Assembly: GCF_017254845.1 (NCBI RefSeq)
Contig: NZ_JAFKCU010000005.1
Location: 186,001-250,000 of the forward strand
Direction of reading: 5' to 3'
Length of the DNA: 64,000 bases
Origin: Algoriphagus pacificus
GTDB taxonomy: Bacteria > Bacteroidota > Bacteroidia > Cytophagales > Cyclobacteriaceae
Part shown: positions 44,422 to 59,681 of the stretch, in pieces
Layout: each line of letters starts with the position of its first letter
How positions within the stretch are numbered: position 1 is the stretch's first letter
Program-made: the position numbers and the translations under genes
The notes under the pieces: model-generated
Told to the model about the DNA's origin: nothing
The model's input: only the letters and a program-made list of their open reading frames with translations
Database searches by the model: none

Positions 44422-44460
44422 AAAAAAGCTTCGTCAGAATAAATCTGACGAAGCTTTTTT
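44422..44460. terminator. strong bidirectional terminator
   Basis: AAAAAAGCTTCGTCAGA and TCTGACGAAGCTTTTTT form a perfect 17-bp stem with a 5-nt loop, between the stops of the convergent PepSY and phosphoesterase genes. Confidence 0.92.
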
Positions 44461-44473
44461 TAATTATAATTCT

Positions 44474-46627
44474 TTATTCTATTTCTTTTCGATGTCTCGG
44501 AAAGCTTTTATCATAAGGAACAGTTATTTTAGGATCATCGGTCCTTGCTGAAGTCTCTTGGAATACACTTTCAAAAGTCGGAGCCTGATCCATTCTATCA
44601 CCCATTCCCCATCTTGCTTTAGGAATACCATACCATTTGAGCAAAGTCGCGGCAAAAGAGGTTGAGTCAAATGGAATATCCTGGCCTGATCTGATAACCG
44701 TGTTTTTCTTGATCCAAGGAGAGACAAAAATGGTTGGTACTCTTGGACCCATCAAATCAAATTTAAATCCATCCACATTATCATTTGGCCATGGTTTCGC
44801 AGCATAAGGTGGTTTCACATGATCATATATTCCTCCATTTTTAGAGAAAGTAATCACAAATAAGGTTTCTTCCCATTGAGGCCCATCTTTAATGGCGTTG
44901 TAAATATCCCGAAGGGCTAATTCAGCTGGAACCATATCTCCACCGGGATGGTAGGAAGTCGTACCGATAGGAGCAATCCAAATAGGCTCTAGAAAACTAA
45001 AAGTTGGTAAAATTCCTTGTCTCGCCTGAAGCTTAAAAGTTTCAAGACTATTGATGTAAGGAGCTGGCTTTGCGTCAATGCTTGGAACCTGTCCTTGCAG
45101 ATACAAGTGATAGGTAAAAGGATAACCTAACCAATCAATGACATTGTAGATTTTCCAATCCTTGAAACCATTGTTATATAAAACTTTCCAGAGAGATTGG
45201 CGGTGAGGAAAGTTAGGCCAGTATTCATAAATACTACCTCCCTCCCAGGTATCCAATCGGTTCATTCCTGAACCCGTGACTGAAAATGCACGATTGATAT
45301 CGGTTCCACCTGGTACTGAACAAAACCATTCATCGCTGATTGCAAAATTTTCCGCTAGTCCATTCAAAACAGGAAGTTGCTCTGGAGTTAAGCTGAGCAT
45401 CACATCGGTATTGGAATTGTTTCTTACAAAACCTCCCATATCCGGGGTGGCATGTCCTTTATATCCGGGGTGGGTTTCATAAAACATCTGTTGCAAACCG
45501 TCAGAATTATCATGAAAAGGATCCTGACCTTGATCAGACAGATCATAATCTTCGCTGAGTTTCCCGTCTTTAAATTTGCTGGCATAGACCTTCTTCCCTT
45601 CTTGGAGATTGTAATTCTCTGTGCTTGCACCGTCGAAAGGCCTATCTGATCCAATGAAATTGATCGAAGATTGGTTGTTTTCATACAACCAGCCACAGAC
45701 ATTGTCAAAGGATCTACTTTCCAACATGTAATAGACTACACGCTTGATTTTAGTTCGCATAAAGTCAATAGTGCCAGGTTCCGTTGATGCACCAACATTC
45801 ACTTTTTCTAAAGTTTGGATTCCTAGTATTGAACCTACTCCACTAAAATCACTAGGCAAATCACCATCACAAATCAGATTACGGAAAGGATGTTTTGCGG
45901 CAGGATCAAAAGCCCAAAGACTAAATTTCAGTTCACCTGGAACCCAGGTTAATATCTGCTCACCAACAACCACTATTTGATGCTTGGCTTCTATCCCCTC
46001 AAAAGTTCCTGATTTGACCTCTGGAATTGACAAAGGCATCGTACTCTGAGGATCAAAACTCCAAATCCTATAAGTATTGGTTGCAGCATGTCTATCAAGA
46101 ACATAATTACCAATGTTGATGAGTTCATTTCCTTCCAAAATAGTAGGAAATCCACCTTGTGGGGTATAAGTACTCGGTATTGGATCACTGGTGTTTGGAG
46201 CTGTTAGATTAGGGTCAAAATTATAGAGCATGTAGGTTCCTCTCCCCTTTCCTCCCACAAAAAACAACATAAAGTTGCCCATCGAAATAAGTGGCAGCGT
46301 TTTCTTTTCATCTGGGTTGTCCGAATACCTCGGGCGATATCCCCAAAATTTTGTAATTGGCCAATGTCCATTCTGAATGGTTTCACCAGCCAATGGGTCT
46401 GAAGAGGATTCATCAAATGAAATCAGTCTATACGGAAAAGAATTCTTTGAATCCGCCGGACCCCAATCCAATAAATACCCTCCAATAGGTGCTAATTGGT
46501 GAGTAGAATCAAACTTGGCTGTTGGAGAAATTGGGAGTTTCGTAAAAATGTTTTTTGAGTCAGGAGTGAATGTCCAAGCTCCATATCCATCATCAGACTT
46601 GTTTCTTGTGATTAAAATAGTGCTCAT
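44474..46627 (-). CDS. phosphoesterase (acid phosphatase/phospholipase C family) with N-terminal repeat domain
   Basis: This 717-aa protein has a C-terminal phosphoesterase domain (PF04185 type, from about residue 285): VYYMLESRSFDNVCGWLYEN, ISDEWFCSVPGGTDINRAFS, FVITFSKNGGIYDHVKPPYA, MGPRVPTIFVSPWIKKNTVI and PFDSTSFAATLLKWYGIP. The N-terminal 270 residues hold at least four related segments of the form YRLISFDE, YMLYNFDPNLTAP, YRIWSFDPQSTMPL and FSLWAFDPAAKHP, probably a small beta-propeller-like domain. No signal peptide is visible although the family is normally exported. Where canonical enzymes have Glu-Asn near the first motif this one has Glu-Ser. Its promoter region carries three TCTAAA(T/A) half sites like those upstream of the siderophore operon. 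Confidence 0.87.
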   Translation of the reverse strand: MSTILITRNKSDDGYGAWTFTPDSKNIFTKLPISPTAKFDSTHQLAPIGGYLLDWGPADSKNSFPYRLISFDESSSDPLAGETIQNGHWPITKFWGYRPRYSDNPDEKKTLPLISMGNFMLFFVGGKGRGTYMLYNFDPNLTAPNTSDPIPSTYTPQGGFPTILEGNELINIGNYVLDRHAATNTYRIWSFDPQSTMPLSIPEVKSGTFEGIEAKHQIVVVGEQILTWVPGELKFSLWAFDPAAKHPFRNLICDGDLPSDFSGVGSILGIQTLEKVNVGASTEPGTIDFMRTKIKRVVYYMLESRSFDNVCGWLYENNQSSINFIGSDRPFDGASTENYNLQEGKKVYASKFKDGKLSEDYDLSDQGQDPFHDNSDGLQQMFYETHPGYKGHATPDMGGFVRNNSNTDVMLSLTPEQLPVLNGLAENFAISDEWFCSVPGGTDINRAFSVTGSGMNRLDTWEGGSIYEYWPNFPHRQSLWKVLYNNGFKDWKIYNVIDWLGYPFTYHLYLQGQVPSIDAKPAPYINSLETFKLQARQGILPTFSFLEPIWIAPIGTTSYHPGGDMVPAELALRDIYNAIKDGPQWEETLFVITFSKNGGIYDHVKPPYAAKPWPNDNVDGFKFDLMGPRVPTIFVSPWIKKNTVIRSGQDIPFDSTSFAATLLKWYGIPKARWGMGDRMDQAPTFESVFQETSARTDDPKITVPYDKSFPRHRKEIE

Positions 46628-46941
46628 AGAAAATAATTTAAAGGAGGAAAATTTTTAAAAATAAATCGGTATTGATTTTCCTAATCTACTTAGAAAATGA
46701 ATAATTATATCTAAATTATCTAAATAAATTCTAAAAAAAATACAAGTTATGAGGTTTAATAGTCCAATATTTTCTAAGTATAAGTCACTTTGAAAATGCT
46801 TTTACTGAAAATTTTAAATTTAATATTCGCATCAGCTTGAATTTGGATTTTCTACACTGGAAGGAGCGAATCTCCTCTGAGTATTAAAAATTTGAATTGT
46901 TGATTTTAGCTTGTTTGAAAGTAAAAATTATTAAAAACAGC
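46628..46941. other. divergent intergenic region with TCTAAAT repeats
   Basis: This gap of about 314 bp lies between the phosphoesterase (minus) and the gamma-glutamylcyclotransferase (plus). It is very AT-rich and holds no gene that I can see. It contains a half-site array at 46710-46735 and a small AGGAG-N5-CTCCT inverted repeat at 46862-46876, about 65 bp before the plus-strand gene. Confidence 0.5.
46710..46735. promoter_or_regulatory. array of three TCTAAAT-type half sites
   Basis: TCTAAAT occurs at 46710-46716 and 46719-46725, and TCTAAA at 46730-46735, all in the same orientation and 9-11 bp apart. The same heptamer forms the right arm of the Fur-like palindrome at 40560-40578. The array lies about 80 bp upstream of the phosphoesterase gene, so iron control of that gene is possible. 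Confidence 0.35.
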
Positions 46942-47727
46942 ATGTTCTATTATTTTGGCTACGGTTCAAATATTAACCTGATTTCATTGAAAGCTAAAGG
47001 TGTGATACCCGTCAGCTCAGAGAAAGCTGTGCTGAAAGACTGGAAGCTTCGATTCAATGTTCAACACTGGTTCACACATGAAGGAGGGATGGGTAATATC
47101 GAACCAAGCACTGATTCTGGAAATTGGGTAGAGGGAATGATTCATTTATGTCCTGAAGAGCATTTGCCTTCCCTCGACGCAATGGAATCTGAGGGAGTAG
47201 CTTATAAAAGAATAGAAATCGAGGTTGAAACTGATAATGGACCAAAAAAGGCTCTCACTTATGTAGGAATGCCTGCGTTTTTAAATGAAGAATGCCTGCC
47301 AACGAGACGCTATTTGAATATTATCCTGAAGGGAGCTATTCAGGCTGGATTATCGGAAAATTACCTTTTCAAATTACAAAACCAAGTTTTGAAACCAGAG
47401 GAGACCTATCCTGACTTTGAACCTCAAAAAGATGTAAACAAGGAATTTAATTCAGAATCAATATCGCCTTACAAGAACCTGACAGCATTGGCAGGGCATG
47501 TTTTTGATATGTCAAAGGCTCGAAGGAATCTTCAGGTTATTACTCCCCTTTTTGGAGGAAAAGATATGACTCTGTTTCATATCAAAAGACATGACTCCAG
47601 TACTGGAAACGAACAGATTGAGGATTTCTTAAATGACAGAATATCACCTGCGGTAAAGAATTACCTCAATGGTTATTTGGATGCCTACCAAAAGGAATTT
47701 GAATATGTTGGCAAATACAAGTATTAA
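46942..47727 (+). CDS. gamma-glutamylcyclotransferase-family protein
   Basis: This protein of 261 aa starts at the ATG at 46942, which places the diagnostic motif FYYFGYGSNINLISLKAKG at its N-terminus; an in-frame TTG at 46897 would add 15 residues with no support. The fold continues with LKDWKLRFNVQHW, EGMIHLCPEEHLPSLDAMES (catalytic-type Glu in MESEGVAYKRIE) and ALTYVGMPAF. The family cleaves gamma-glutamyl amines or glutathione to 5-oxoproline. It is the first gene of a long same-strand cluster that also contains glutathione synthesis genes, which supports action on glutathione or a gamma-glutamyl peptide. The C-terminal 90 residues extend beyond the core fold and I do not recognise them. 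Confidence 0.82.
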   Translation: MFYYFGYGSNINLISLKAKGVIPVSSEKAVLKDWKLRFNVQHWFTHEGGMGNIEPSTDSGNWVEGMIHLCPEEHLPSLDAMESEGVAYKRIEIEVETDNGPKKALTYVGMPAFLNEECLPTRRYLNIILKGAIQAGLSENYLFKLQNQVLKPEETYPDFEPQKDVNKEFNSESISPYKNLTALAGHVFDMSKARRNLQVITPLFGGKDMTLFHIKRHDSSTGNEQIEDFLNDRISPAVKNYLNGYLDAYQKEFEYVGKYKY

Positions 47728-47805
47728 AAACTGATAACTGCCAAAAAAATGAGATATTTAGAAAGATTGGACATTTGAAAAAACATAAATTTTAAACCAC
47801 CAAAA

Positions 47806-48522
47806 ATGACTAATTACTTAGAATCGATGCCTCATGGAGATATCCAGGAAGTATTCAAAGATGTGTTTTTCGTTACAGGAACTATGAAAAATGAGTTTTT
47901 CGGTTCTATGTGGCAGTTCAGTCGAAACATGACAGTTGTCAAAGAGGGTAATAATCTTACCATCATCAATTCGGTCAGGTTGAATGATGAAAGTTTAAAA
48001 GAACTTGAAAAGCTTGGGAAAATAGTAAATGTCGTCCGGATCGGTGATATGCACGGAGTAGATGACCCATTTTATGTCCATAAATATGGAGCAACATTTT
48101 GGGCACTTCCGGATATGAAAGTCCAAGACAGCATTAAGATCGATAAAGCTTTGGTAGAAGGAGGCGAAATGCCATTTTCTGACTGCTCTCTTTTCGTATT
48201 TAAAACAGTCAAAAGGCCAGAATGTATTCTGAGACTTGACAGAGAAGGAGGCATAATGATCGCTTGTGACTCTTTACAAAACTGGATCGAACCTGATCAG
48301 TTTTTTGATGAGGAAACAATTCCAACAATGCAAAACATGAACTTTTTCAAACCTGCAAATCTTGGTTTGGCTTGGTTACATGAGAGTCAACCGCAAGCGG
48401 ATGATTTTGTGAGACTCAAAGAAATCCCTTTCAAGCATGCACTTTGTGGACATGGTTACCCATTAAAGGACAATGCGCAGGAAGAATATCACAAGACTTT
48501 TAATGAAATTTTTAAGGTATAA
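47806..48522 (+). CDS. metallo-beta-lactamase-fold-like protein with degenerate metal site
   Basis: This 238-aa cytoplasmic protein shows the strand pattern of the MBL superfamily, close to DUF4336-like proteins: VFFVTGTMKNEFFGSMWQFS, NLTIINSVRLNDESLKELEK, VVRIGDMHGVDDPFYVHKYG, GGIMIACDSLQNW and HALCGHGYPLKD. The canonical HxHxDH motif is absent and is replaced by a GDMHGVDD segment, so metal binding and hydrolysis are doubtful or altered. The stop is only 2 bp before the TTG start of the giant kinase/cyclase gene, which points to translational coupling. The neighbouring glutathione genes make a glyoxalase II-like origin conceivable, but that is speculation. Confidence 0.65.
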   Translation: MTNYLESMPHGDIQEVFKDVFFVTGTMKNEFFGSMWQFSRNMTVVKEGNNLTIINSVRLNDESLKELEKLGKIVNVVRIGDMHGVDDPFYVHKYGATFWALPDMKVQDSIKIDKALVEGGEMPFSDCSLFVFKTVKRPECILRLDREGGIMIACDSLQNWIEPDQFFDEETIPTMQNMNFFKPANLGLAWLHESQPQADDFVRLKEIPFKHALCGHGYPLKDNAQEEYHKTFNEIFKV

Positions 48523-48524
48523 TA

Positions 48525-51500
48525 TTGAAAGCAAATCGAAGCATTAGAATAGCTGAAACTATACCCGGCTATACTATTGTCGAGATTGTATACGAATCAG
48601 CACCCCATATCATCTTCCTTGCCAAGCGTGAGGAAGATGGCAAGGAGGTCGTGCTTAAAACTTTGCAAGACAAATACCCTAAAAAAGAAAATCTAGCCAG
48701 TATTCAGAGGGAATACAACATCATTCAAAAGCTTCAATTTGAAGGAATTATCCAAAGCAATAAGCTCATTGAGTTTGGAAATGGCAGCTTAGCCATCGAA
48801 ATGGAGCACTTTGGGATTTCTGTAGAAGAATATCTCTCGATTTTTGAAAAGAAAATCTTACCCCTTCAGGATTTTTACACGCTGGCAATCAAACTGGTCA
48901 AAATATTGGATCAGCTTCATGAGCATGATGTTGTCCATAAAGATTTAGTTCCAAGGAATATTCTGATTGATCCAGAAAGTGGTGATCTCAGAATCATTGA
49001 CTTCAGCAATTCTTCAGAATTATCCCGAGAGCATCAAGAGTCAACTTTAGCAAAAAACATTGAAGGTTCTCTTCCTTACATGGCTCCGGAGCAAACGGGC
49101 CGTATGAACAGGGACATCGATTACAGAACTGATTACTATACTTTGGGCATTACCTTTTATCAGATGCTAACAGGAAAACTCCCTTTTCAGGCCAATGATG
49201 CCTTGGAGTGGGTTCATTGTCATATCAGTAGGCAACCATCACCTGCGATTGAAATCAATCCTAAGCTTCCGATTTCTCTTTCTTTGATTGTGGAAAAAAT
49301 GATGTCTAAAAATGCAGAAGATAGATATCAGAGTGGTTATGGATTGATTGCGGATCTCAAAAAATCTCAAGAAGCCTACTTAAAAGGAAGCCTGGAAGAG
49401 ACATTTCAGTTGGCAACTTTGGATAATTCCAGTCATTTTCAAATTCCGCAAAAGCTGTATGGTAGGATAAACGAGTTAAAAAAGCTGGTAGCTTATTTTG
49501 AAAAAACCACTCAAGGGAATGTAGAATTTGTCCTGGTTTCCGGCTATTCAGGAGTTGGGAAATCAGTATTGGTTCAGGAATTAGGTAGATCCATTGTCAA
49601 AAAGCGGGGCTATTTAATCCAAGGAAAATTCGAGCAGTTCAGGCAAAACTCCGCCTACATTGCTTTGTCTAAAGCCTTCCGGGATCTAATCCGCCAATTA
49701 CTAGGCGAACCTGCTGAACGATTGGAGTTTTGGAACAAAAAGCTGACGAAAGCACTCGAAACCAATGCTCAGTTAATTATTGAGCTCGTTCCTGAACTAG
49801 AATTGATTATAGGCACGCAGCCTCCTGTACTTGAATTATCACCAAATGAAACCCAAAACAGGTTTCTAATAGTATTCATCAACTTTGTTAAGGTTTTCAC
49901 AGCAGAGCAACATCCTTTAGTCATTTTTCTGGATGATCTACAATGGAGTGATATTCCCACACTCAATTTGATCCAACGTTTGGTAACTAGCCAAGAATTG
50001 AATCATTTGATGATTATCGGAGCTTTTCGAGACAATGCAGTGGATGATGCACATCCTTTGACGCTGACTCTTGAGGAGATTCATAAAAAAAGACCAGTAG
50101 AAAATCTAGCCCTTCAACCACTTACAAAAGAGACTGTAGATCAGATAATCATGGACACCATGAATATAAGCCATGAGCAATCTACCGAATTGAGTGAATT
50201 ACTATTTGAAAAAACTGGTGGAAATCCATTTTTCACCATTGAGATACTAAAGAACCTTCATGATCAATCAGTTATTTATTTTGATCAACATTCAGGTATC
50301 TGGACTTGGGACATCGAAAAAGTCAAAAATGTAGAACACTGTGATAATGTGGTGGATTTTTTGGTAGCCAGTCAGCATAGGCTTCCCGAGTCCACTCAGT
50401 ATGTGTTGCAGTTGGCAGCATGTATCGGGGCAACTTTCGACCTTAAAAACCTTTCTATAATTCGGGAAGGATCGATGGAGGAGACAGCCAGCGAACTTTA
50501 TGAAGCACTCAAATCCAACATTATCATTCCTCTGAATGAAAATTATAGGTTAGTTGGCTTGACCAATAGTTTGCTCAAAAATCAAAAAAACAACCTGGCA
50601 GAAACGAGTGAAAATCTGGTTAACCCAACCTATAAATTCCAACATGATCGGGTACAGCAAGCGGCTTATTCGCTGATTGAACCATGTAAAAGAAAAGCAC
50701 TTCATCTTTCTATTGGAAGGTTAATCCTCAGCCATTTGGACCCAGACGAGTTTGATGAAAAACTAATGGACATTGTTGGACATTTAAATGAGGGTAGATC
50801 CTTGGTAAATGACCCAAAAGAGCAAGAGGAAATTGCTGAATTAAATCTTCACGCAGGTATTAAAGCCAAGCAGTCTTCGGCTTATTTGGCGGCTTTGGAA
50901 TATTTAAAAATAAGCTTTGAAATCGTCAAAGAGCAGGCATGGGAAAGCAATTACCCTTTCATGTGGAAGCTCAGTGAAGAAATACAAAACTGCTTTTACT
51001 TGACCGGGGATTGGGAAAATGCCAACACCTGGACAGAGATTATGCTTTCGCATGCCAAAACTCCAATTGAAAAGGGTTTGGTACTTTCTGCAAGAACCAG
51101 ACAGTATGCCACAATCGGCAAAATGCAGGAATCAATTCAAGCTGCTTATGAAGGGCTTTCCATTTTGGGATTTGACTTTAAAAAGGTGCCTTCGGAGACA
51201 GATGTAGCAGAAGAGATCAAGTTAGTAGCAGTTCATCTTCAAGAAAGAGAAATTGCAGATTTGATTAATATGCCTGCTCTGAGCGACCCAAAGGCCAGAA
51301 TTGCAAGCAATCTCTTGATGGAAATTTTTCCAGCGGCCTTCCTATCAGGTTCAGGAATGACATTTCCATACCTGGTTTTGAAGTCTGTAAACATCTCTCT
51401 TGAGTTTGGTAATTCTCCCGAAACTGCATTTTCCTACGCAGCCTATGGCATGTTGCTTTGCGGATATTTCGATGATCAGGCCAAAGGCTTTCAGTTCGGA

Positions 51501-53933
51501 AAACTTGGAGTAGATCTGATAGAAAAATATGAGGACATATCTCTGAAATCCAGAATCCTCTATGTCTATACCATGTTTGTGCACCACTGGAGCAATCACT
51601 GGTCATCCATGACACCATGGTTCAGAAAGGGAATTGAAACAGGGTATCAATCCGGTGATTTATTATACTTGGCATATAGTGCCCAGGATTGTGTGATTTG
51701 GGATCCACAACTGGATTTGGAGACTGCTTCAAATGAACAGAGAAAGCTGCTCAAAATTGTAAAGGAATGTGATTATCAGGATTCTTACGATTCAGGCACG
51801 TTGTTTCTTCAGATGCAACTCAATTTCCAAGGCCTTACTAAAGATCTTTATTCTTTGACGGATGAATCTTTTGATGAGTCTCTCTGTGTTCAAGGGATGT
51901 TTGATCGGCATTTCATGACTGGAATTGCCAATTATCATATTTACAAAGCAGAAATCCATCTCTTATACAATGATTTCCAAGGAGCACTTTCTCATGTTTT
52001 AGAACAGGAAAAACTCATGGCATCAGTCATGTCTTTGCCTCAATTGGTCAGATTTCATATCACTTCTTTTTTGGTTAAATCAAGTTTACTGGAAGGACTA
52101 AAAACTGATCATCAGGCAGCATTCCAAAAAAGCATGGAGGAAAGTCTGGAGAGAATAACTCATTGGGCTCAAAACTGTCCTGAGAATTTTCTACATCTAC
52201 AATACCTGATGGAGGCAGAACTTACCGGATTGACCGGTAACCTGGAAAAAGCTATCAAGTTGTATGAAAAATCCATCTCCTCAGCCAATAAAAATAATTT
52301 TGTGAGGGATGAAGCTGTGGCAAATGAGAGAGCTGCTCTTTTTCTAATCAAAAACGGTCTCTCAAAAGCTGCTGATGGTTACTTACAAGCCTCGCACTAT
52401 TTATACTACCGCTGGGGGGCATATAGAAAAACCGAAGAACTCGAAAAAGCCCATCAAATATTCAGTGGGGCGAATAAATACTCTTCAAATAGAACTGTCA
52501 AAGAAACTCTAGGCTCTGCAAATTCTGATACTTTCTCAATGGATTTTCTGGACTTAAGTTCAGTTTTCAGAGCTTCTCAGACCATTTCTGGGGAATTGGT
52601 TTTAGATAAACTTCTGAAAGCAACACTTCAGATTTTAATAGAAAATGCTGGAGCACAAGATGGTTTTTTGGTTGAGCAAAAAGATGGTCAAATCATCATT
52701 CAGGCACAGAATGGAAATGAAATATCTTCGAAAAAGAAAAATCAGGTTTTGGATCAATCAAATTTCTCAAAACTTCCTTTAAGCCTGATCAATACTGCTT
52801 TACGAACCAATCAATCCATAGTAATTGATAATGCCAAAGAGGAAAACTCTTTCTCTTCAGATCCTTATTTTCAGATCAATCAGCCTCTTTCTATTATGTG
52901 TGTACCACTTTCTAACCATAGTCAATGGAAAGTTGCGGTATACTTGGAGAATAACCTGACCCATAGTGCTTTCACTGAAGAACGAGTCAAAATCATCAAA
53001 CTGTTGGCTGGTCAGGCGGCTATTTCGATCGAAAATGCCAGAATTTATGAGGAGCAAGACAAGCTTCTAAAAGCACAACAGCGCTTTGTTCCAATTCAGT
53101 TTTTGAAGCATTTGGGACACAATGACATTGCAAAGGTCAAACTTGGAGAATCAGTCTCTATGGAAATGAGCGTCTTGTTTTCTGATATTAGAGAATTCAC
53201 ACCTTTGGTAGAATTGCTTTCTCCTCAGGCTGTAATTGAACTCCTAAATCAATATTACAGCAAATTGGGTCAGCATATTTCGGAAAGCGGTGGGTTCATA
53301 GATTCCTATGCAGGAGATGAGATTTTAGCGCTTTTCGCAGTACCTGCCACTCAGGCAGTGGAAGCAGGAATCAAGATGGGCCAATCACTTTGGAAATTCA
53401 ATCATGAATCAGGAGTCAAGGGAAGGCCGATTTTAAAAATGGGCATTGGAGTAAATACGGGGCCTCTTGTATTAGGAACTATGGGTGGCCAGGACAGAAT
53501 GCAATGCACAGTTTTAGGTGACACCGTTAATTTGGCTTCGCGGATTGAGCAGTTGACAAAAGTCTATAATTCCCAGTTTATCATTGGAGAGAACACGTAC
53601 GAAGCCCTGGAAAATCCTGAAAAATACACGATTCGAATGATCGATCGGGTAGCTGTCAAAGGGAAAATGAAAGCTGTAAAACTATATGAAGTGTTGGATG
53701 CGGAGAGTGATGAAAGAAGATTTGCCAAAGAGTCAACCTTAAAGCTTTTGCGAGAAGGAATGGAGGTTTACTATCAGCAGAATTTCTCTCTAGCTCACCA
53801 ATTATTTCGACAGGCATTTGCTATTGATCCTTTCGATCCTGTTTTGTCTTCATTTATTTCCAGATCAAAAAGGTATATTGAAAATCCTCCTCCCAAGGAT
53901 TGGGCGGGATATGAAAACTTGAATACCAAATAA
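48525..53933 (+). CDS. giant multidomain signalling protein: Ser/Thr kinase-like, AAA ATPase, GAF, class III cyclase
   Basis: This 1802-aa protein uses a TTG start 2 bp after the previous stop; no upstream ATG fits. Domains: protein-kinase-like (about 15-285; Lys45, HKDLVPRN with Asp140, DFS at 159-161, YMAPEQTGRM); AAA/ORC-type ATPase (about 310-600; Walker A SGYSGVGKS near 340, Walker B IFLDDLQWSD near 467); a long helical TPR-like region (about 720-1330); GAF (about 1365-1510); class III nucleotide cyclase (about 1545-1735; VLFSDIREFTPL, FIDSYAGDEILALF, LGDTVNLASRIEQL). The kinase lacks a glycine loop and the Lys of the DLKxxN motif, so it may be inactive. Both cyclase metal Asp residues and the Asn/Arg pair are present, while the usual adenine-selecting Lys is Ser. 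Similar proteins usually end in a histidine kinase. Confidence 0.9.
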   Translation: MKANRSIRIAETIPGYTIVEIVYESAPHIIFLAKREEDGKEVVLKTLQDKYPKKENLASIQREYNIIQKLQFEGIIQSNKLIEFGNGSLAIEMEHFGISVEEYLSIFEKKILPLQDFYTLAIKLVKILDQLHEHDVVHKDLVPRNILIDPESGDLRIIDFSNSSELSREHQESTLAKNIEGSLPYMAPEQTGRMNRDIDYRTDYYTLGITFYQMLTGKLPFQANDALEWVHCHISRQPSPAIEINPKLPISLSLIVEKMMSKNAEDRYQSGYGLIADLKKSQEAYLKGSLEETFQLATLDNSSHFQIPQKLYGRINELKKLVAYFEKTTQGNVEFVLVSGYSGVGKSVLVQELGRSIVKKRGYLIQGKFEQFRQNSAYIALSKAFRDLIRQLLGEPAERLEFWNKKLTKALETNAQLIIELVPELELIIGTQPPVLELSPNETQNRFLIVFINFVKVFTAEQHPLVIFLDDLQWSDIPTLNLIQRLVTSQELNHLMIIGAFRDNAVDDAHPLTLTLEEIHKKRPVENLALQPLTKETVDQIIMDTMNISHEQSTELSELLFEKTGGNPFFTIEILKNLHDQSVIYFDQHSGIWTWDIEKVKNVEHCDNVVDFLVASQHRLPESTQYVLQLAACIGATFDLKNLSIIREGSMEETASELYEALKSNIIIPLNENYRLVGLTNSLLKNQKNNLAETSENLVNPTYKFQHDRVQQAAYSLIEPCKRKALHLSIGRLILSHLDPDEFDEKLMDIVGHLNEGRSLVNDPKEQEEIAELNLHAGIKAKQSSAYLAALEYLKISFEIVKEQAWESNYPFMWKLSEEIQNCFYLTGDWENANTWTEIMLSHAKTPIEKGLVLSARTRQYATIGKMQESIQAAYEGLSILGFDFKKVPSETDVAEEIKLVAVHLQEREIADLINMPALSDPKARIASNLLMEIFPAAFLSGSGMTFPYLVLKSVNISLEFGNSPETAFSYAAYGMLLCGYFDDQAKGFQFGKLGVDLIEKYEDISLKSRILYVYTMFVHHWSNHWSSMTPWFRKGIETGYQSGDLLYLAYSAQDCVIWDPQLDLETASNEQRKLLKIVKECDYQDSYDSGTLFLQMQLNFQGLTKDLYSLTDESFDESLCVQGMFDRHFMTGIANYHIYKAEIHLLYNDFQGALSHVLEQEKLMASVMSLPQLVRFHITSFLVKSSLLEGLKTDHQAAFQKSMEESLERITHWAQNCPENFLHLQYLMEAELTGLTGNLEKAIKLYEKSISSANKNNFVRDEAVANERAALFLIKNGLSKAADGYLQASHYLYYRWGAYRKTEELEKAHQIFSGANKYSSNRTVKETLGSANSDTFSMDFLDLSSVFRASQTISGELVLDKLLKATLQILIENAGAQDGFLVEQKDGQIIIQAQNGNEISSKKKNQVLDQSNFSKLPLSLINTALRTNQSIVIDNAKEENSFSSDPYFQINQPLSIMCVPLSNHSQWKVAVYLENNLTHSAFTEERVKIIKLLAGQAAISIENARIYEEQDKLLKAQQRFVPIQFLKHLGHNDIAKVKLGESVSMEMSVLFSDIREFTPLVELLSPQAVIELLNQYYSKLGQHISESGGFIDSYAGDEILALFAVPATQAVEAGIKMGQSLWKFNHESGVKGRPILKMGIGVNTGPLVLGTMGGQDRMQCTVLGDTVNLASRIEQLTKVYNSQFIIGENTYEALENPEKYTIRMIDRVAVKGKMKAVKLYEVLDAESDERRFAKESTLKLLREGMEVYYQQNFSLAHQLFRQAFAIDPFDPVLSSFISRSKRYIENPPPKDWAGYENLNTK

Positions 53934-54021
53934 AACAGCGAATTCTCTGCCTATTTTTGATTATTGGGGAGATCGCTGGCATTTTTAAATTATTCTAACC
54001 TCACTTGAAAAAGCGGTACCC

Positions 54022-55011
54022 ATGAAGCCCATTCGAATCGGTTTTGTGATGGATCCCATAGCATCCATCAATCCAAAAAAAGACAGTACGCTTGCCCTGA
54101 TGCTAGAGGCTCAAAAAAGGGGCTGGGAAGTATCTTATTTGGAGCTAGGTGACTTGTTTATTTCAAATGGAATTCCAGAAGGAAGAATCCATCACGTGGA
54201 AGTTTTCAACAATCTTGAAATCTGGTATAAAGATCTTAAAACCACTTTTGAACCCTTGTATAAGCTTGATGTATTGGTTATGCGAAAAGACCCTCCATTT
54301 GATATCGAATTCATTATGGCAACCTACATCTTGGAAAAAGCCGCAGATGAGGGTGTTCTTATCTTAAATCAGGCTAACTCCCTTAGAGATGTAAATGAAA
54401 AGGTTTATACAGCTTGGTTTCCCCAATGCTGCCCACCTAGCCTATTGACTCGTTCCAAAAGTACGCTATTGGATTTTCTACAAACTCACCACAAAATTGT
54501 AGTGAAACCAACCCACAAAATGGGAGGTCAATCAATTTTTGTCTTGTCCGAAGGAGATCCTAATACCCAGGTGATTTTAGAGGAAATCACGAAAAAGGAA
54601 ACTTGCTTCATTCAGGCCCAGGCATACATTCCTGAGATAGAAACTATTGGCGACAAGAGAATTCTCCTTATTGATGGAACTCCTATTCCATACGGGATCG
54701 CAAGAAAACCCAGACCGGGAGATCATCGAGGAAATCTCGCTGTCGGCGCTTCTGCTGAAGGATTCACATTGACTGAAAGGGATCTTTGGATCTGCGAACA
54801 GCTGAAACCTATGCTTTTGGAAAAAGGTCTCTTTTTCGTTGGAATCGATGTAATTGGGGATTATCTAACAGAAATCAATGTAACCAGCCCAACTGGAATT
54901 AAAGAAATTAACCATCATTTCAATCTGGATATTGCAGCAACATTTTTCGACTCCTTGCATCAAAAATTAATCGATCATCAAACTTTTAAAAATCATGATT
55001 TCTCCACTTAG
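54022..55011 (+). CDS. gshB: glutathione synthetase GshB-like ATP-grasp ligase
   Basis: This 329-aa protein matches GshB over its whole length: IRIGFVMDPIASINPKKDST at the start, VLVMRKDPPFDIEFIMATYI, LRDVNEKVYTAWFPQCCPPS, VVKPTHKMGGQSIFVLSEGD (ATP-grasp), RILLIDGTPIPYGIARKPRP, HRGNLAVGASAEGFTLTERD and VGIDVIGDYLTEINVTSPTG. It joins gamma-glutamylcysteine to glycine with ATP. Its gene is two positions upstream of a glutamate-cysteine ligase-type gene, so both steps of glutathione synthesis are encoded here. It overlaps the DNase II-like gene by 17 bp and lies 88 bp after the giant signalling gene. The glycine partner could be replaced by another amine. Confidence 0.93.
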   Translation: MKPIRIGFVMDPIASINPKKDSTLALMLEAQKRGWEVSYLELGDLFISNGIPEGRIHHVEVFNNLEIWYKDLKTTFEPLYKLDVLVMRKDPPFDIEFIMATYILEKAADEGVLILNQANSLRDVNEKVYTAWFPQCCPPSLLTRSKSTLLDFLQTHHKIVVKPTHKMGGQSIFVLSEGDPNTQVILEEITKKETCFIQAQAYIPEIETIGDKRILLIDGTPIPYGIARKPRPGDHRGNLAVGASAEGFTLTERDLWICEQLKPMLLEKGLFFVGIDVIGDYLTEINVTSPTGIKEINHHFNLDIAATFFDSLHQKLIDHQTFKNHDFST

Positions 55012-56065
55012 CAATCAATCAGGAAAGCCAGTTGACTGGTGGTTTTTGTACAAACTTCCTATGAAAATCGGTCCTGAAAATAACACAACAGGCTTTGAAT
55101 TTCTTTATATGGATTCGAGTTCTACGGAAGGATTGTCCTTATCTCCGATCCATTTAGATCATGATCAATCTGCCTTTGGATTGACCTTGAAACAAGTTTT
55201 TTCAGATGATCCAGACCATGGCTATGTGCTATGGAATGATGAAATCCCTCCCTCGACAACAGTACCTAATCCTGTCAATGTAGGGACAAAAGGACATTCC
55301 AAAGGAATCCTTGCTTTCTGTAAAAAAACCAATTCCGCATTTTATTTGCTTCACTCGACACCGAGATTCCCTCTAAAGGGCCAGCTGGATCTACCGGAAG
55401 ACGAAAAAAAGTTTGGGCAAACCTTTTTATGTGTTTCCCTAAAAGATATGGATACAGCAAACAAACTTGCTGAATCTATACAAATGCAGGTTGAAGCCCA
55501 AGTGTATGATAGTCTCTTGCCAGGAATTGAAAGCACAGACGCAATTTATAAGTTGGCAAAAAACGAAGGGTTTGTGGCACCAAGCTCTACCGCCAAAATT
55601 GATTTTTTATCTGCCAAAGGAGAGAAATTCACCTACATCGCCAAAAATAAAAGATGGAGCGAACCGCCACATGGAGTCCAGTATGGAAAGGATTTTTGGA
55701 AAGATTTAGTTGCTCCAGGACTTAACTGTAAACTGGATGTAGAAACATGGAGAAGAGGCTTAGTCTTTGGAGATTCCACCGGTAGAGTTGCAGGAGAAAC
55801 AGAAGATATTGTTGACTTGGATTTTGGTAAAATTGGCCTCACTGGATATACATGGCCATTCTCAAAAGATCATGCGAAATGGGGGATTTCAATAAAAAGC
55901 GATCCTGGATATATCATCATTGCAGATATCAACAGGCAAGTCAGCCAAGAGAAAAGAGGTGGAGGAGGTATTGCATTTCAAAACACTAGCCTTTGGAAAA
56001 ATCTAGATGCAGTGGAAATAATTGAAAAAACAATAGAAGACGATCCCCATCATGACGTCAGCTAA
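54995..56065 (+). CDS. DNase II family nuclease without signal peptide
   Basis: This 356-aa protein aligns by eye with animal lysosomal DNase II along its length: SGKPVDWWFLYKLP, GYVLWNDEIPP, GHSKGILAF, FYLLHSTPRFP, GQTFLCVSL, DHAKWGIS and EEKRGGGG-like EKRGGGGIAFQ. Both HxK catalytic motifs of this phospholipase D-like fold are present (His101-Lys103 and His293-Lys295), so activity is likely: metal-independent cleavage giving 3'-phosphate ends. The protein starts only about eight residues before the SGKPVDW block and has no signal peptide, unlike the eukaryotic enzymes. Cytoplasmic location, or export by another route, is therefore an open question. It overlaps gshB by 17 bp and is followed after 21 bp by the gshA-like gene. 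Confidence 0.9.
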   Translation: MISPLSNQSGKPVDWWFLYKLPMKIGPENNTTGFEFLYMDSSSTEGLSLSPIHLDHDQSAFGLTLKQVFSDDPDHGYVLWNDEIPPSTTVPNPVNVGTKGHSKGILAFCKKTNSAFYLLHSTPRFPLKGQLDLPEDEKKFGQTFLCVSLKDMDTANKLAESIQMQVEAQVYDSLLPGIESTDAIYKLAKNEGFVAPSSTAKIDFLSAKGEKFTYIAKNKRWSEPPHGVQYGKDFWKDLVAPGLNCKLDVETWRRGLVFGDSTGRVAGETEDIVDLDFGKIGLTGYTWPFSKDHAKWGISIKSDPGYIIIADINRQVSQEKRGGGGIAFQNTSLWKNLDAVEIIEKTIEDDPHHDVS

Positions 56066-56086
56066 TTTTCTTGTATCTTCCAATCC

Positions 56087-57430
56087 ATGAGCGCAGATTT
56101 TTTGAGTCAGGACACCGTAAATGAGTGGATAAAAAGGGAACTTTTTCAGCCCAAAAAATCAATTTATCCTACCGGTGAAGTAGGCAAAATTGGAATTGAA
56201 CTTGAAGCTTTTCCCTATACTTTTTCAAAAGAAAACAAGCCTATTCCTGTTCCGCTTAATGATCAGAACTTTTCTCTTATGGATAGATTGGCTAGCCTTT
56301 CTCAAGAAAAAAGAGCAGAACTCATTTATGGCGGATCACAATTGGATAAAATCCTTTTTCCAAACGGCACGAGCATCCAATTTGAACCAGGAGGACAAGT
56401 AGAAATTGCTACTACCCCTCATCCAAGCTTAAGTGAATTGGAGGCTGATTTGGAATCAAAACAGCAAATCTTTGATCAACTCACTGCTGAAAATCAAATT
56501 CATTTTGGCCAATATGGAACAAATCCCTGGTTTCAAAACTCTGAAATTGGCCTCCAATTACAGAAACCCAGATACCAGGCTTTAGAGTCTTATCTAGACA
56601 AAATCTCACCTTTTGGAAGACAAATGATGAGACAAACTTGCTCTCTGCATGTCAATTTAGATTTGGGTGAGAATGAAGAAATCCAAGTAAAACGGATACT
56701 TGTATCGAATCTGCTGGTCCCATTTATAGCTGCTATTTTTGCCAATTCAGCTCATTTAGGAGGAAAAGCAACAGGTAAGCTTTCTTATAGAAGAATGCTT
56801 TGGCAGCAGTTAGATCCATTAAGAACAGGGCTTTTTCCAAAACTTGAAAATATCAAATCAATCCAAATAGAAGACTTGGTTCAGGCTTATGAAAAATTGA
56901 TTTGGAACGCGCCATTGGTCTTTGTGCCTGATTTTGGTAGTCAGGAATTTTCACACCCTTTTACCTTTCAAAACTGGGTGGAAAACCCAATTCAATCGAC
57001 ATCTCCAAATTTCAATCACCTAAAAAATCATTGTTCTCTACTTTTTCCGGAGGTGAGAATGAAAGGATTTTTGGAAATAAGAACAGCTGATTCGCTTCCT
57101 CGAAAATGGCAACTTACTCCTGCTTATTTTCTGGCAGGAATTCTCTATTCAAACAGACATTTGGATGAAGCATTTGAACTTTTGGCTAACCTATCCCCAA
57201 AAATCCAGCAACAATTAGATCTGTGTACAGACGGGCTCAAATCAGAACTTCTATTTCAACCCGCAAAAGAACTGATGGGAATTGCAATCCATGGGCTCAA
57301 AGAATTGCCTGAATCTTTTGTGGGAAAAAAAAGTATTCCGGTACTCACAGAATTTTCAGAAAGATTCACTCAAAAAAGACTGACAGTTGCCGAAGAAATG
57401 ATATATGATTTTTTTAATGGTAAAACATGA
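56087..57430 (+). CDS. glutamate-cysteine ligase, GCS2/EgtA type
   Basis: This 447-aa protein has the GCS2 pattern: KIGIELEAFPYTF (metal Glu), IQFEPGGQVEIATTPHPSLS, QYGTNPWFQ, FGRQMMRQTCSLHVNLDLG, SYRRMLWQQLDPLRTGLFP and FLEIRTADSLPRKW. It should form gamma-glutamylcysteine from glutamate and cysteine with ATP. It belongs to the EgtA/plant-type branch rather than the E. coli GshA type. In EgtA the product serves ergothioneine synthesis, but no EgtB/EgtD genes are visible and gshB is two genes upstream, so glutathione is the more likely product. The DNase II-like gene lies 21 bp upstream and a HAD phosphatase 65 bp downstream. Confidence 0.9.
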   Translation: MSADFLSQDTVNEWIKRELFQPKKSIYPTGEVGKIGIELEAFPYTFSKENKPIPVPLNDQNFSLMDRLASLSQEKRAELIYGGSQLDKILFPNGTSIQFEPGGQVEIATTPHPSLSELEADLESKQQIFDQLTAENQIHFGQYGTNPWFQNSEIGLQLQKPRYQALESYLDKISPFGRQMMRQTCSLHVNLDLGENEEIQVKRILVSNLLVPFIAAIFANSAHLGGKATGKLSYRRMLWQQLDPLRTGLFPKLENIKSIQIEDLVQAYEKLIWNAPLVFVPDFGSQEFSHPFTFQNWVENPIQSTSPNFNHLKNHCSLLFPEVRMKGFLEIRTADSLPRKWQLTPAYFLAGILYSNRHLDEAFELLANLSPKIQQQLDLCTDGLKSELLFQPAKELMGIAIHGLKELPESFVGKKSIPVLTEFSERFTQKRLTVAEEMIYDFFNGKT

Positions 57431-57495
57431 TTTTTTCTATATATTGAATCATTAACGATTATTTTTCTAATATCTCAACTTTATAAATCTCAATA

Positions 57496-58263
57496 ATGAG
57501 TGATTTTTCTCAACTCCAACAGGTCCTTTCCAAAATCAAATCCGAAAAGAATTTACCGATAGTAGTTTTTGATTTGGATGACACTCTGTTTTCCACCGCA
57601 CGAAGAAACCTGGTAATTATCCAGAACTTCGCAGCTATTCAAGGGGACGACTTCCCTGATTTTGTCGCAGTTGCCAATAAGCTGAAACTCTCAGATATGA
57701 ATTGGAGTGTGACCTACGCCCTGACCAATTCAGGACTTGATCCCAACAGTCAATCCTTAGATCCTTTTATCAAGTATTGGGGATCAACCTTTTTTACTGA
57801 TACTTATGTTTCTCTCGATTTACCTAATCCTGGAGCTGTGGATTTTGCCAATGCCTGTCATGAGGCTGGCGCCTTAATCTACTATCTAACTGGAAGGCAT
57901 ATCGGTGATCGAGGCTTGGATAATGGAATGGGCCAAGGAACTACGCTTTCCCTGACTAACAATGGATTCCCCTTTTGGAAAGGGAGATGTGAGCTTAATT
58001 TAAAAGCTGACAAATCCGAAAAAGATGTGGATTATAAAAACCAGGCTCTGGCAGCAATAAAATCCCTGAAAGGAACTGTGGTAGCTACTTTTGACAATGA
58101 ACCTGGAAATGCAAATCTATTCCATCAAAACTTTCCAGATGCCTCCAATTTTTGGGTAAAAACCACTTGGAATCCCAACGACAAAGCTCCAACCGATGGA
58201 CTATATGTAATTCCTGATTTTTCAGAATGGAAAAATGATAAAACCACTAAAGCATCCTACTGA
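57496..58263 (+). CDS. HAD-superfamily phosphatase
   Basis: This 255-aa cytoplasmic protein has the four HAD motifs: I, VVFDLDDTLFSTARRN (Asp26 nucleophile, Asp28); II, IYYLTGRHIGDRG (Thr132); III, a Lys in KDVDYK near residue 181; and IV, VVATFDNEPGNANLF (Asp200). A cap insertion lies between motifs I and II (about 40-120). No signal peptide is present. The order fits small-molecule phosphatases; the substrate is unknown. Its stop overlaps the start of the next gene (TGATG), so the two are translationally coupled. Similar HAD proteins occur beside sugar-phosphate or nucleotide enzymes, but here the context is glutathione genes and a nuclease. Confidence 0.88.
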   Translation: MSDFSQLQQVLSKIKSEKNLPIVVFDLDDTLFSTARRNLVIIQNFAAIQGDDFPDFVAVANKLKLSDMNWSVTYALTNSGLDPNSQSLDPFIKYWGSTFFTDTYVSLDLPNPGAVDFANACHEAGALIYYLTGRHIGDRGLDNGMGQGTTLSLTNNGFPFWKGRCELNLKADKSEKDVDYKNQALAAIKSLKGTVVATFDNEPGNANLFHQNFPDASNFWVKTTWNPNDKAPTDGLYVIPDFSEWKNDKTTKASY

Positions 58264-59591
58264 TGAATAACTCTTTTGAATATTGCCTGGGTCCGGCAAG
58301 AAAAATAGCACAACTGTACCCACCTGCAAAATATGCCAATGCAGATTTAAAATTTAAAAAATTGACTGATGTCATCGAGCACTACACAAAACATTCTTTA
58401 AAGGCCGATGGGATAAAAGGAATTGAAAATGTAAGCGCAAGACTCCAAAAAGGTGAATACCATATCAAAATAGAGGGTAGTACAGACAAAAAGATTTTAA
58501 AATCATTTGCAAAAAGACATGTAAAAGTTTTTGGGCCAGAGTATGCTCAAAAAGCAATCAAAGGCATGAAATTGATGAAGAAATTGGGAGTTTGGAATCC
58601 CATGAAAGACTATCATGTCAACCTCAATCCAAACGATGGTACTTCCAAGTGGCAGCTTTTCCCTCCCTTAGGTCTGAATATGATTGGACAAAGAGGATTG
58701 CTATTGATGCATTATCCACCTTGGGCAGTATTGCAAGCAGGATCATTTGACAATGCCATGACTATGCAACGCTGGTCAAGGATGTTGACTTCTTCCGGTG
58801 TAGCTGAAGAAGATGTGGATTATTATAAGACTTTTATCGACGTGAATCCAGTGGCAGCCCCAGGTTCAGGTGAAAGCGAATATCCAAATGATTACATGCC
58901 TATCATGATGGCTTCTGCTTTTTTTGATAGGCCAAAAGACCGAGACTATATCAAGTCCATGCTGGAACTCTTTTTAAATCCTCCTGGAATGGATAAAGAC
59001 AGTAAATACACTTTGCCACTTTTGATTTGTGGCTCTCCCCTATACGATCCACAGGCTCCAGGATGGTTTAGAACGGCCTATCCTGATATTCTTCCTCAGG
59101 TAGATAATATCCCTCAGGTGAATGTACTGCAAGCTGGAAAATTCAAGATTTTCCCAGATTCAAAAAAAGAAACCCCTTACCTCATTGGCAATCATATGAT
59201 CGCAGCTGGAGTAACAGGAAAATGTACTCCTGATTCAAGCAAAATGCCAGATATAAGATTGTATGAAGCACAGGATTTGGTAGCAGCTACTTTCTTACAA
59301 CTCTATTCACAAAACCCTGATATCGATCCGGAAGTAGCCAAAGCCCAAGCCTGCAAAAGATGGTTTGGGAATGAGGAAGGAACAGGTAGTCCTGAACCAG
59401 AAAGTGAAGATGATAAACTAGCAATTTGTGCCCTTGCACAAATGGATCTGTTTTTTGCGTCAAAACCCACTTCTCACCCTTTGTATTCCTATGAAGAAGC
59501 CTGCGAAAGATGCAAGCAAAAAGGTGTTATGGATAATCCATGCTTTGATTCCATCAAACCTACGGATCCCAGAAAAATTTCGAATTGTTAA
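58263..59591 (+). CDS. protein of unknown function, 442 aa, coupled to the HAD phosphatase
   Basis: I do not recognise this 442-aa protein. It has no signal peptide or clear membrane helix. The N-terminal third is basic and helical (KIAQLYPPAKYANADLKFKK, KSFAKRHVKVFGPEYAQKAI). The middle is rich in aromatic and Pro residues (NMIGQRGLLLMHYPPWAVLQ, YPNDYMPIMMASAFF, LICGSPLYDPQAPGWFRTAY). The C-terminal part carries several cysteines (QACKRWF, LAICALAQ, EEACERCKQKG, DNPCFDS, ISNC), which suggests a metal or disulfide site. The start overlaps the HAD gene stop by 1 bp and a terminator follows, making it the last gene of the cluster. A partner of the HAD enzyme is plausible. Confidence 0.8.
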   Translation: MNNSFEYCLGPARKIAQLYPPAKYANADLKFKKLTDVIEHYTKHSLKADGIKGIENVSARLQKGEYHIKIEGSTDKKILKSFAKRHVKVFGPEYAQKAIKGMKLMKKLGVWNPMKDYHVNLNPNDGTSKWQLFPPLGLNMIGQRGLLLMHYPPWAVLQAGSFDNAMTMQRWSRMLTSSGVAEEDVDYYKTFIDVNPVAAPGSGESEYPNDYMPIMMASAFFDRPKDRDYIKSMLELFLNPPGMDKDSKYTLPLLICGSPLYDPQAPGWFRTAYPDILPQVDNIPQVNVLQAGKFKIFPDSKKETPYLIGNHMIAAGVTGKCTPDSSKMPDIRLYEAQDLVAATFLQLYSQNPDIDPEVAKAQACKRWFGNEEGTGSPEPESEDDKLAICALAQMDLFFASKPTSHPLYSYEEACERCKQKGVMDNPCFDSIKPTDPRKISNC

Positions 59592-59611
59592 ACCACTAAC
59601 TTTTATAAAAG

Positions 59612-59644
59612 GAAAAACCCGAGACCTAATAGGTTTCGGGTTTT
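59612..59644 (+). terminator. intrinsic terminator ending the 46.9-59.6 kb cluster
   Basis: AAAAACCCGAGACC and GGTTTCGGGTTTTT form a 14-bp stem with one G-T pair and a TAATA loop, followed by T residues. It lies 20 bp after the unknown 442-aa gene and before the stop of the convergent cytochrome gene. Confidence 0.85.
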
Positions 59645-59681
59645 TTATTCCAAATCAGACCTGATTTGACTTAACGCTCTA

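Follow-up and report, generated by a model that had tools for sequence, protein, structure and literature searches.

We identified in Algoriphagus pacificus a cluster of nine genes, g0 to g8, that appears to move horizontally as a unit between distantly related bacteria and that joins a giant signalling protein to glutathione synthesis genes, a DNase II and further putative hydrolases. The component families are known, while their combination is new relative to the sources searched. From domain content and distribution we propose that the cluster may be a mobile, second-messenger-controlled stress or conflict (immunity-like) module that combines hydrolase effectors acting in the cytoplasm with a glutathione supply of its own, a reading to which we give a probability of roughly 0.4. 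The cluster lies in a stretch of 64,000 nucleotides of contig NZ_JAFKCU010000005.1, referred to as the window, whose features are as follows.

40433..59677, no strand: block of TonB receptor, PepSY gene and whole cassette (comparison with relatives' sites)
44422..44460, no strand: perfect 17-bp inverted repeat in the spacer that separates g0 from the PepSY gene (-23.6 kcal/mol, z -8.2)
44474..46627, minus strand: g0, PF04185 non-specific phospholipase C-type phosphoesterase (Pfam, 175 bits)
46942..47727, plus strand: g1, gamma-glutamyl cyclotransferase (GGCT/AIG2) domain protein (Pfam)
47806..48522, plus strand: g2, small putative metallo-hydrolase, perhaps of MBL fold (invariant residues, weak PDB matches)
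48525..53933, plus strand: g3, kinase/ATPase/GAF/cyclase of 1802 aa (Pfam Pkinase, AAA_16, GAF and Guanylate_cyc)
54022..55011, plus strand: g4, glutathione synthase GshB (TIGR01380, 371.6 bits, cut-off 299.05)
54995..56065, plus strand: g5, DNase II without signal-like N-terminus (PF03265, 3.9e-69, 233.8 bits)
56087..57430, plus strand: g6, GCS2 glutamate-cysteine ligase, plant/EgtA type (PF04107, 4e-34)
57496..58263, plus strand: g7, HAD phosphatase (weak PF03767 acid phosphatase B, 28.7 bits, cut-off 27)
58263..59591, plus strand: g8, 442-aa protein (no family above cut-off)
59612..59646, plus strand: intrinsic-terminator hairpin at the operon end (strong, -22.7 kcal/mol, z -5.8)

All eight plus-strand open reading frames, g1 to g8, that the earlier note had grouped are present at the locus. 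The cluster is real, but its extent of eight genes proved too small: the unit also includes g0, which is divergent from the g1–g8 operon and stands within or adjoining the cluster in 15/15 carriers. Several genes had been described as overlapping or at most 25 bp apart, which holds for four of the seven junctions (overlaps of 17 bp at g4/g5 and 1 bp at g7/g8, gaps of 2 bp at g2/g3 and 21 bp at g5/g6); the remaining gaps measure 78 bp (g1/g2), 88 bp (g3/g4) and 65 bp (g6/g7). Folding bore out the single strong terminator placed after g8, a hairpin missing from the output of a simple consensus terminator scan, and the 17-bp inverted repeat is probably a two-way terminator marking the left cluster edge. 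The statement that signal peptides are lacking agrees with a crude hydropathy analysis, in which the N-termini of g0–g8 are without a signal-like stretch (maxima 0.38–1.63, compared with 2.25–2.75 in three neighbouring genes with signal-like N-termini). Among the family assignments, those of g1, g3, g4, g5 and g6 were recovered by Pfam, the HAD call for g7 is weak and the label MBL-like for g2 is weakly supported; the Pfam search of the cluster proteins gave no family for g2 and g8.

Genes g0–g8 occur in identical order in two Flavobacteriaceae, Gillisia and Christiangramia, an order thereby common to three genera in two families with unrelated flanks. Variant clusters are found in three Chitinophagaceae (without the HAD gene) and three Proteobacteria (without the gsh genes), with g0, g1, g2, g3 and g8 as a near-fixed core across two phyla and g1 in every cluster. 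Conserved co-occurrence, which the earlier note had proposed to look for, is thus observed. It had also said what would count against the grouping, namely scattered orthologues with just gshA and gshB paired; among 117 relatives, g8 has seven carriers, and in 7/7 the whole set is together, the DNase II being interrupted in one (G065), so the grouping withstands this check. The suggestion that nucleic-acid cleavage is tied to a thiol metabolite has support at the level of gene association, not beyond that.

The cluster is rare and patchy, with 7/117 relatives by g8 and 3/395 of the phylum by g2; in the Flavobacteriaceae g2 is found in 1/179 (Gillisia itself) and in the Chitinophagaceae in 3/195. 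Carriers outside the genus were reached through DNase II or g2 searches. The DNase II search led to 13 loci, six of them with core genes and four of the other seven short or cut near the gene. For the class of Neptuniibacter, 15/321 gave g2 matches, and the nine neighbourhoods read comprise two with the core and seven lone g2 relatives; in the family of Nitrosomonas, two of three further g2 matches were read, both lone.

Sequence identities within the cluster do not follow those of the hosts. RpoB identity to the window is 95–96% in three congeners, 71% in Gillisia, 68% in Chitinophagaceae and 48% in Nitrosomonas; for the same hosts, g2 gives 70–75, 70, 74 and 70%, and g3 gives 61–69, 61, 62 and 56%. 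Even among the three congeners the cluster proteins are 43–75% identical, mostly scarcely above between-family values, versus 95–96% for RpoB. Furthermore, the block 40433..59677 is missing from the collinear site of G044, a clean empty site of about 260 bp; of the two other relatives read, G018 has one unrelated gene in its place and the G014 site is not collinear on the left. The low identity relative to RpoB and the empty G044 site together argue for the cluster moving as a block. Part of its history may nevertheless be vertical, since g0 is clearly closer within the genus (61–68% versus 43–44% to Chitinophagaceae) and the g3 tree holds the genus together. Phage and plasmid cargo were considered and rejected: profiles of g2 and g8 gave no relative in viral contigs, and among plasmids g2 matched three Vibrio replicons of 1.8 Mb (a lone g2 relative in the one stretch read, L035), g8 matched none and DNase II matched one Burkholderia record, with the core absent in the stretch read.

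The g3 protein consists of a protein kinase, an AAA_16 (STAND-like) ATPase, a long helical region, a GAF domain and a class III nucleotide cyclase, a content that fits the earlier description of a signal-controlled module. Six orthologues are 42–62% identical, and the output domain is exchanged between class III cyclase and GGDEF; in two gammaproteobacteria the kinase is degenerate and GGDEF replaces the cyclase. The g1 protein, whose C-terminus is extended by a conserved stretch of some 110 aa, is matched by human GGCT at 1.6e-10 and retains GSN and Glu82, presumably the catalytic Glu of GGCT, in 10/10 aligned sequences (YGSN in 9/10, FGSN in Neptuniibacter); the GGCT Pfam domain, the motif and the Glu together assign it to the gamma-glutamyl cyclotransferases.

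Neither Pfam nor NCBIfam searches yielded a family for g2, in which H83-G-x-D86-D87, D155 and H216 are unchanged in 14/14 sequences. The metallo-beta-lactamase fold is marked by the motif HxHxDH, in whose place g2 has H83-G-x-D86-D87, and its four PDB matches are weak (E 0.35–0.61; 2p97, a 'hypothetical' protein, and three RNase J chains), g2 being a putative MBL-like protein. A shorter relative of g8, g8b (about 341 aa), precedes g1 in some clusters, and H34, D43, R141, D164, N260-H261 and D283 (g8b numbering) are invariant in 9/9. The fold search with g8 gave neither a match in the PDB nor a family over the threshold. A resemblance of g8b to uracil-DNA-glycosylase, seen by eye, was supported by no tool and dropped.

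Among the putative hydrolases, g5 is matched by the bacterial DNase II structure 5i3e at 1.7e-61 and combines PF03265 with two intact HxK motifs (GH[ST]KG and DH[AS]K), which are kept in 16/16 uninterrupted DNase II copies aligned. The gene is interrupted in 2/12, including G065, and is not in the stretch read in 3/3 g2-found clusters outside the genus (G1254, G1164 and G776); three clusters, two from Chitinophagaceae and one gammaproteobacterial, lack both DNase II and HAD. In the DNase II tree the cluster copies fall at three separate positions, a pattern that we read as probable repeated recruitment, the separate origins resting partly on genomes found via DNase II itself. The g7 protein weakly resembles a phage polynucleotide-kinase phosphatase (phrog_415, 3e-13). 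The nearest solved structure to g0, whose N-terminal 290 aa or so are repetitive and propeller-like by eye, is NPC4 (1.7e-36). The NPC4 motifs ENRSFD and DEHGG, which we take to be metal-site motifs, are both intact in g0 of Nitrosomonas and three Chitinophagaceae, while g0 of the window has ESRSFD and SKNGG instead; motif residues are lost in 6/6 full-length copies of the genus and in 2/2 gammaproteobacteria.

Of the two glutathione genes, g4 also exceeds the PRK05246 equivalog cut-off (392.5 versus 272 bits). Plant GCL aligns to g6 at 4e-33, and g6 reaches just the broad GCS2 Pfam family, staying under the equivalog cut-offs of EgtA (163.1 versus 370.8 bits) and plant GCL (140 versus 463.15 bits). 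GshB above cut-off is found in seven of the 117 relatives, exactly the cluster carriers, and in 8/8 remaining carriers, and is thus available in 15/15. Both GshB and the GCS2 ligase lie inside the cluster in 12/12 Bacteroidota carriers; in 3/3 Proteobacteria the stretch read has neither and GshB is encoded elsewhere in the genome. Glutathione therefore looks like a required partner of the core. The cassette may not be its only source, because sub-cut-off GshB-like proteins (about 200 bits) occur at ten further loci of the genus, one of them in carrier G062, and also in carriers G502 and G506. In the sections of PMC6282198 available to us, a census places gshA-B in Proteobacteria, Cyanobacteria, one actinobacterium and eukaryotes, and bacillithiol is predicted for Bacteroidetes. 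By its predicted gene content, the cassette brings glutathione-making genes to hosts that are not known as glutathione makers.

No described system with this set was found in the literature searched, which covered few subscription papers, in agreement with the earlier note. A location in defence islands is not supported: no PADLOC family matched more than two of 63 flanking proteins at 1e-15 (five from the window and 58 from other loci, covering part of the loci), and two clusters are flanked by genes that look housekeeping-like by eye. With PADLOC models at 0.01, eight cluster proteins were unmatched, and g3 matched at the domain level only, with PycC models hitting its cyclase domain. This match, and a nucleotide cyclase beside possible effectors, recall Pycsar and cyclic-nucleotide immunity, whereas the pairing of cyclase and recognised effector gene that defines Pycsar/CBASS is absent. 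For NTP-dependent conflict systems we used PMC7159879, presumably Kaur et al. 2020. In its available text, a conflict-system protein occasionally has its cyclic-nucleotide cyclase replaced by GGDEF, the same swap as in g3 (PMC7159879). The cluster proteins differ in having no MoxR or vWA Pfam family, and the main text of the paper has 0 occurrences of 'DNase II', 'glutathione', 'cyclotransferase' and 'phospholipase C' (PMC7159879). The top NCBIfam match of g3 is the TOMM kinase/cyclase fusion TIGR03903, centred on the ATPase region and far under the cut-off (131.9 versus 705.75 bits); in contrast to TOMM systems, no TOMM biosynthesis family is named among the cluster proteins, and g3 has GGDEF variants. 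Ordinary gshA/gshB biosynthesis is resembled in the true GshB equivalog g4 and the plant-GCL-like GCS2 protein, but here the genes sit in a mobile signalling cassette of Bacteroidota. Bacterial DNase II (5i3e) shares family and HxK motifs with g5, while the DNase II genes of Burkholderia and Limnohabitans belong to another kind of cluster, with metallophosphoesterase and ferritin-like genes and the core absent in the stretches read. The cyclotransferase of PMC9751292, as far as its available text goes, is unrelated and neighbours a chlorite dismutase.

In the proposed stress or conflict module, the kinase-like, STAND-like ATPase and GAF parts of g3 would detect stress or an invader, and g3 would make a cyclic nucleotide that switches on the cytoplasmic hydrolases. 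DNase II would cleave DNA to 3'-phosphates, which the HAD enzyme may remove, and g0 would bind or cleave phospholipid-type phosphodiesters; the core would require glutathione as a ligand, redox partner or substrate, and g1 would turn over a gamma-glutamyl bond. Counting against this proposal are flanks unlike defence islands, the lack of g2 and g8 relatives in viral contigs, defence-model matches limited to domains of g3, the clusters with missing or interrupted DNase II, the degraded g0 motifs, the signs of partly vertical history and the GshB-like proteins outside the cassette. A more specific version, which we consider unlikely, is an immunity-like mobile system in which bacillithiol-type hosts would gain glutathione solely for second-messenger-controlled suicide or invader clearing on DNA and lipids, and in which, in glutathione-making hosts, the cassette without synthesis genes would tap the host pool.

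The strongest competitor, doubtful though it seems to us, is a detoxification or small-molecule pathway that depends on glutathione: the thiol would be made by GCS2 and GshB, and g8 or g2 would form or hydrolyse an adduct, g1 remove the gamma-glutamyl group, the phosphoesterases trim intermediates and g3 regulate. In gliotoxin biosynthesis a GGCT-type enzyme removes such a group, and both the distribution of the GSH genes and the gamma-glutamyl chemistry of g1 in all clusters fit; however, no transporter, glutathione transferase, oxygenase or assembly-line family is named in the cluster (g2 and g8 being unnamed), the recurrent association with a DNA nuclease is hard to account for and an 1800-aa kinase/ATPase/cyclase is atypical. 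Scavenging, with DNase II, the phospholipase C-like protein and the HAD phosphatase freeing phosphate from DNA and lipids, is improbable. It would explain three phosphoester-cleaving families in one cluster, and the TonB receptor and PepSY gene that entered the same site, but not the signal-less N-termini of g0, g5 and g7, the clusters without DNase II and HAD or the degenerate g0 motifs in several hosts, and it gives glutathione no role. An ordinary redox-protective gshA-gshB operon whose neighbours are unrelated hitch-hikers, suggested by the clear GshB equivalog, is largely refuted by the core that stands intact without gsh genes in the stretches read of three Proteobacteria and by a gene order kept between families despite unrelated flanks. 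Chance grouping is refuted by the shared arrangement of all nine genes in three genera from two families, with variants in other lineages.

If glutathione is a required partner, the cluster would be a mobile system that travels with the pathway for its cofactor and dispenses with that pathway where the host supplies the compound. It would also provide a context for bacterial DNase II, and it would make the function of kinase/STAND/GAF/cyclase giants directly testable in a compact cassette whose output domain is naturally swapped.

The eight same-strand genes proposed in the earlier note were each confirmed in the ORF listing, as was the strong terminator hairpin closing the operon. A ninth member, g0, has a repetitive N-terminal region; its far side is bordered by a perfect inverted repeat, and it lies in or adjoining the cluster in all 15 genomes examined. 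The features in the window, from a genome of 5.28 Mb, are:

44474-46627 (-), g0, a divergent PLC-like protein
46942-59591 (+), in order g1 (GGCT/AIG2 cyclotransferase), g2 (putative metallo-hydrolase), g3 (1802-aa signalling protein), GshB, DNase II, GCS2 ligase, g7 (HAD phosphatase) and g8 (442-aa protein)
59612-59646, terminator hairpin

Fifteen carriers were counted: seven of the window's genus (G000, G016, G023, G034, G062, G065, G066), five other Bacteroidota, namely the Flavobacteriaceae Gillisia limnaea and a Christiangramia MAG and the Chitinophagaceae G505 (cluster in contig pieces), G1254 and G1164, and three Proteobacteria, the Nitrosomonas MAG G504, the Neptuniibacter MAG G506 and G776, a gammaproteobacterium like Neptuniibacter. 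In or directly adjoining the cluster, g1, g2 and g3 are present in 15/15 (for g2, a result of selection wherever it served as probe) and a g8-family protein in 14/15, the sole exception being Neptuniibacter, where none was found anywhere in the genome. GshB with GCS2 (12/15, all 12 Bacteroidota), DNase II (12/15) and HAD (9/15) are less constant. The nine-gene order is identical in the genus and both Flavobacteriaceae, except for an extra g8b, a shorter g8 relative, in three genus members; G1254 and G1164 have the order g1-g2-g3-gshB-GCS2-g8-g0 without DNase II or HAD. Five carriers hold g8b (G016, G023, G065, G505 and Nitrosomonas), and in the Nitrosomonas cluster it is the only g8-family protein. 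The Nitrosomonas and Neptuniibacter clusters share an additional large repetitive protein (L018:7732-9519, L062:16032-17771; 580-596 aa, 61% identical), matched by no Pfam model and, by eye, beta-helix-like with no obvious signal peptide.

Two side observations concern single families. The g8 of G776 (L063:15784-17139) has a signal-peptide-like N-terminus, unlike that of the window. Lone relatives of g2, 29-41% identical to the window's copy, occur in Vibrio, other Gammaproteobacteria and the Nitrosomonas family (L035:14986-15738, L064-L070, L083, L084; an unnamed protein family), two of them near genes of hydrogenase-related appearance by eye.

The distribution is patchy: g8 occurs in 7 of 117 relatives, all of the window's genus, and a search of 395 genomes from across the phylum found g2 in 3, again of this genus. 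Despite RpoB identities of 95-96%, the cluster proteins of congeners equal or just exceed the Gillisia and Chitinophagaceae values and, for g1-g3, those of Nitrosomonas, with g0 as the exception (congeners 61-68%, Nitrosomonas 54%, Chitinophagaceae 43-44%).

Table. Identity to the window's proteins (reference) in three congeners; Gillisia; Chitinophagaceae; Nitrosomonas
RpoB: 95-96%; 71%; 68%; 48%
g1: 56-61%; 62%; 48-59%; 57%
g2: 70-75%; 70%; 74%; 70%
g3: 61-69%; 61%; 62%; 56%
g8: 64-66%; 67%; 61-65%; –
GshB: 65-68%; 61%; 63%; –
GCS2: 43-46%; 43%; 39%; –

Relative G044 is collinear on both flanks, with about 260 bp standing in place of the window's 19.2-kb block, and in G018 a single unrelated gene occupies the site; in G014, the third relative read, the left side is not collinear. 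In the g1, g2 and g3 trees (g1 and g3 rooted on G776) the Nitrosomonas cluster groups with Bacteroidota clusters, not with G506/G776 (support 0.93-1.00); the genus is held together in the g3 tree (0.99) and not in the g2 tree. Judged by these sequence comparisons, the cluster is mobile and its genes are associated as a unit. The 19.2-kb block also holds genes for a TonB receptor and a PepSY protein (40639-44412). Neither is present at the collinear site of G044 or of G018; they thus inserted where the cassette did, and may have arrived separately.

The cluster DNase II has three supported tree positions: operon copies with Schlesneria (0.99), the Nitrosomonas copy with a Chitinophagales gene (0.98), near which the core genes g0, g1, g2, g3 and g8 were not found within the stretch read, and that of G505 with Acidobacteria, Burkholderia and Polyangiaceae copies (1.00); the Neptuniibacter piece was assigned no position. 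By these placements the cluster DNase II is drawn from several places, a reading that calls for caution, as DNase II itself was the probe that led to the Nitrosomonas, Neptuniibacter and G505 loci; three clusters found without it as probe have no DNase II in the stretch read. Both HxK motifs are kept in 16/16 uninterrupted copies aligned, and the gene is interrupted in G065 and Neptuniibacter. A DNase II neighbourhood of another kind is common to Burkholderia pyrrocinia and a Limnohabitans MAG (L036:6773-20952, L023:9956-19547), with a large protein (about 950-980 aa; a GTPase by its Burkholderia annotation), unknown proteins, a metallophosphoesterase and a ferritin-like protein; Burkholderia also has a tyrosinase there and, close by, a protein with a phage baseplate-hub (GPD) domain. 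In a Chitinophagales MAG (L019:3467-10970) DNase II directly precedes three ORFs resembling, by eye, type I restriction-modification genes.

Among the 117 relatives, GshB scores above the cut-off in exactly the seven carriers, each copy in the cluster; it does so in all eight other carriers too, lying in the cluster in the five non-genus Bacteroidota (in G505 between g3 and GCS2) and elsewhere in the three Proteobacteria. According to a published survey, gshA-B occurs among Proteobacteria, Cyanobacteria, one actinobacterium and eukaryotes; for Bacteroidetes the survey predicts bacillithiol (PMC6282198). By these gene locations, the gsh content of the cluster is host-dependent. GshB-like proteins below the cut-off count against a strict reading in which glutathione follows host need: they occur at ten genus loci (about 200 bits; one in carrier G062) and also in two further carriers, G502 with 192 bits and G506 with 244 bits. 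A single gain of the gsh genes is also conceivable, given that the trees unite the Bacteroidota clusters.

Along g3 lie a kinase domain, an AAA_16 ATPase, then a long helical stretch, a GAF domain and a nucleotide cyclase, and the alignments display which motifs are kept or lost. The metal and transition-state motifs are kept in 5/5 class III cyclase versions aligned, in which a serine stands at the usual site of the purine-specifying lysine. Neptuniibacter and G776 end instead in a GGDEF-like domain (motif GGEEF), a swap that would keep a second-messenger output and change its chemistry; their kinase has lost the lysine, the catalytic aspartate and the DFG aspartate, and in Gillisia a glutamate replaces the catalytic aspartate. 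Nitrosomonas and the three Chitinophagaceae retain intact g0 motifs, and these are altered in 6/6 full-length genus copies and both gammaproteobacteria; that the sequence is kept while the motifs change suggests a role in binding as well as catalysis. DNase II cleavage leaves 3'-phosphates, and g7, which is similar to phage polynucleotide-kinase phosphatases, could fittingly remove them.

Pfam, NCBIfam, PHROGs and PADLOC name the separate enzymes, while g2, g8 and the gene set as a whole are unnamed there; no description of the set was found in the literature searched, from which subscription papers were mostly missing. The main rival explanation, a glutathione-dependent chemical pathway, is plausible but has no named transporter or transferase in its support, and we consider a stress or conflict response more likely; that the flanks are not defence-rich (63 flanking proteins scanned) weakens the conflict reading without removing it. 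Our reading is of a mobile module under second-messenger control, whose hydrolase effectors are cytoplasmic and which requires a supply of glutathione; within it we infer what the module would sense, its messenger and targets, the role of glutathione and the benefit.
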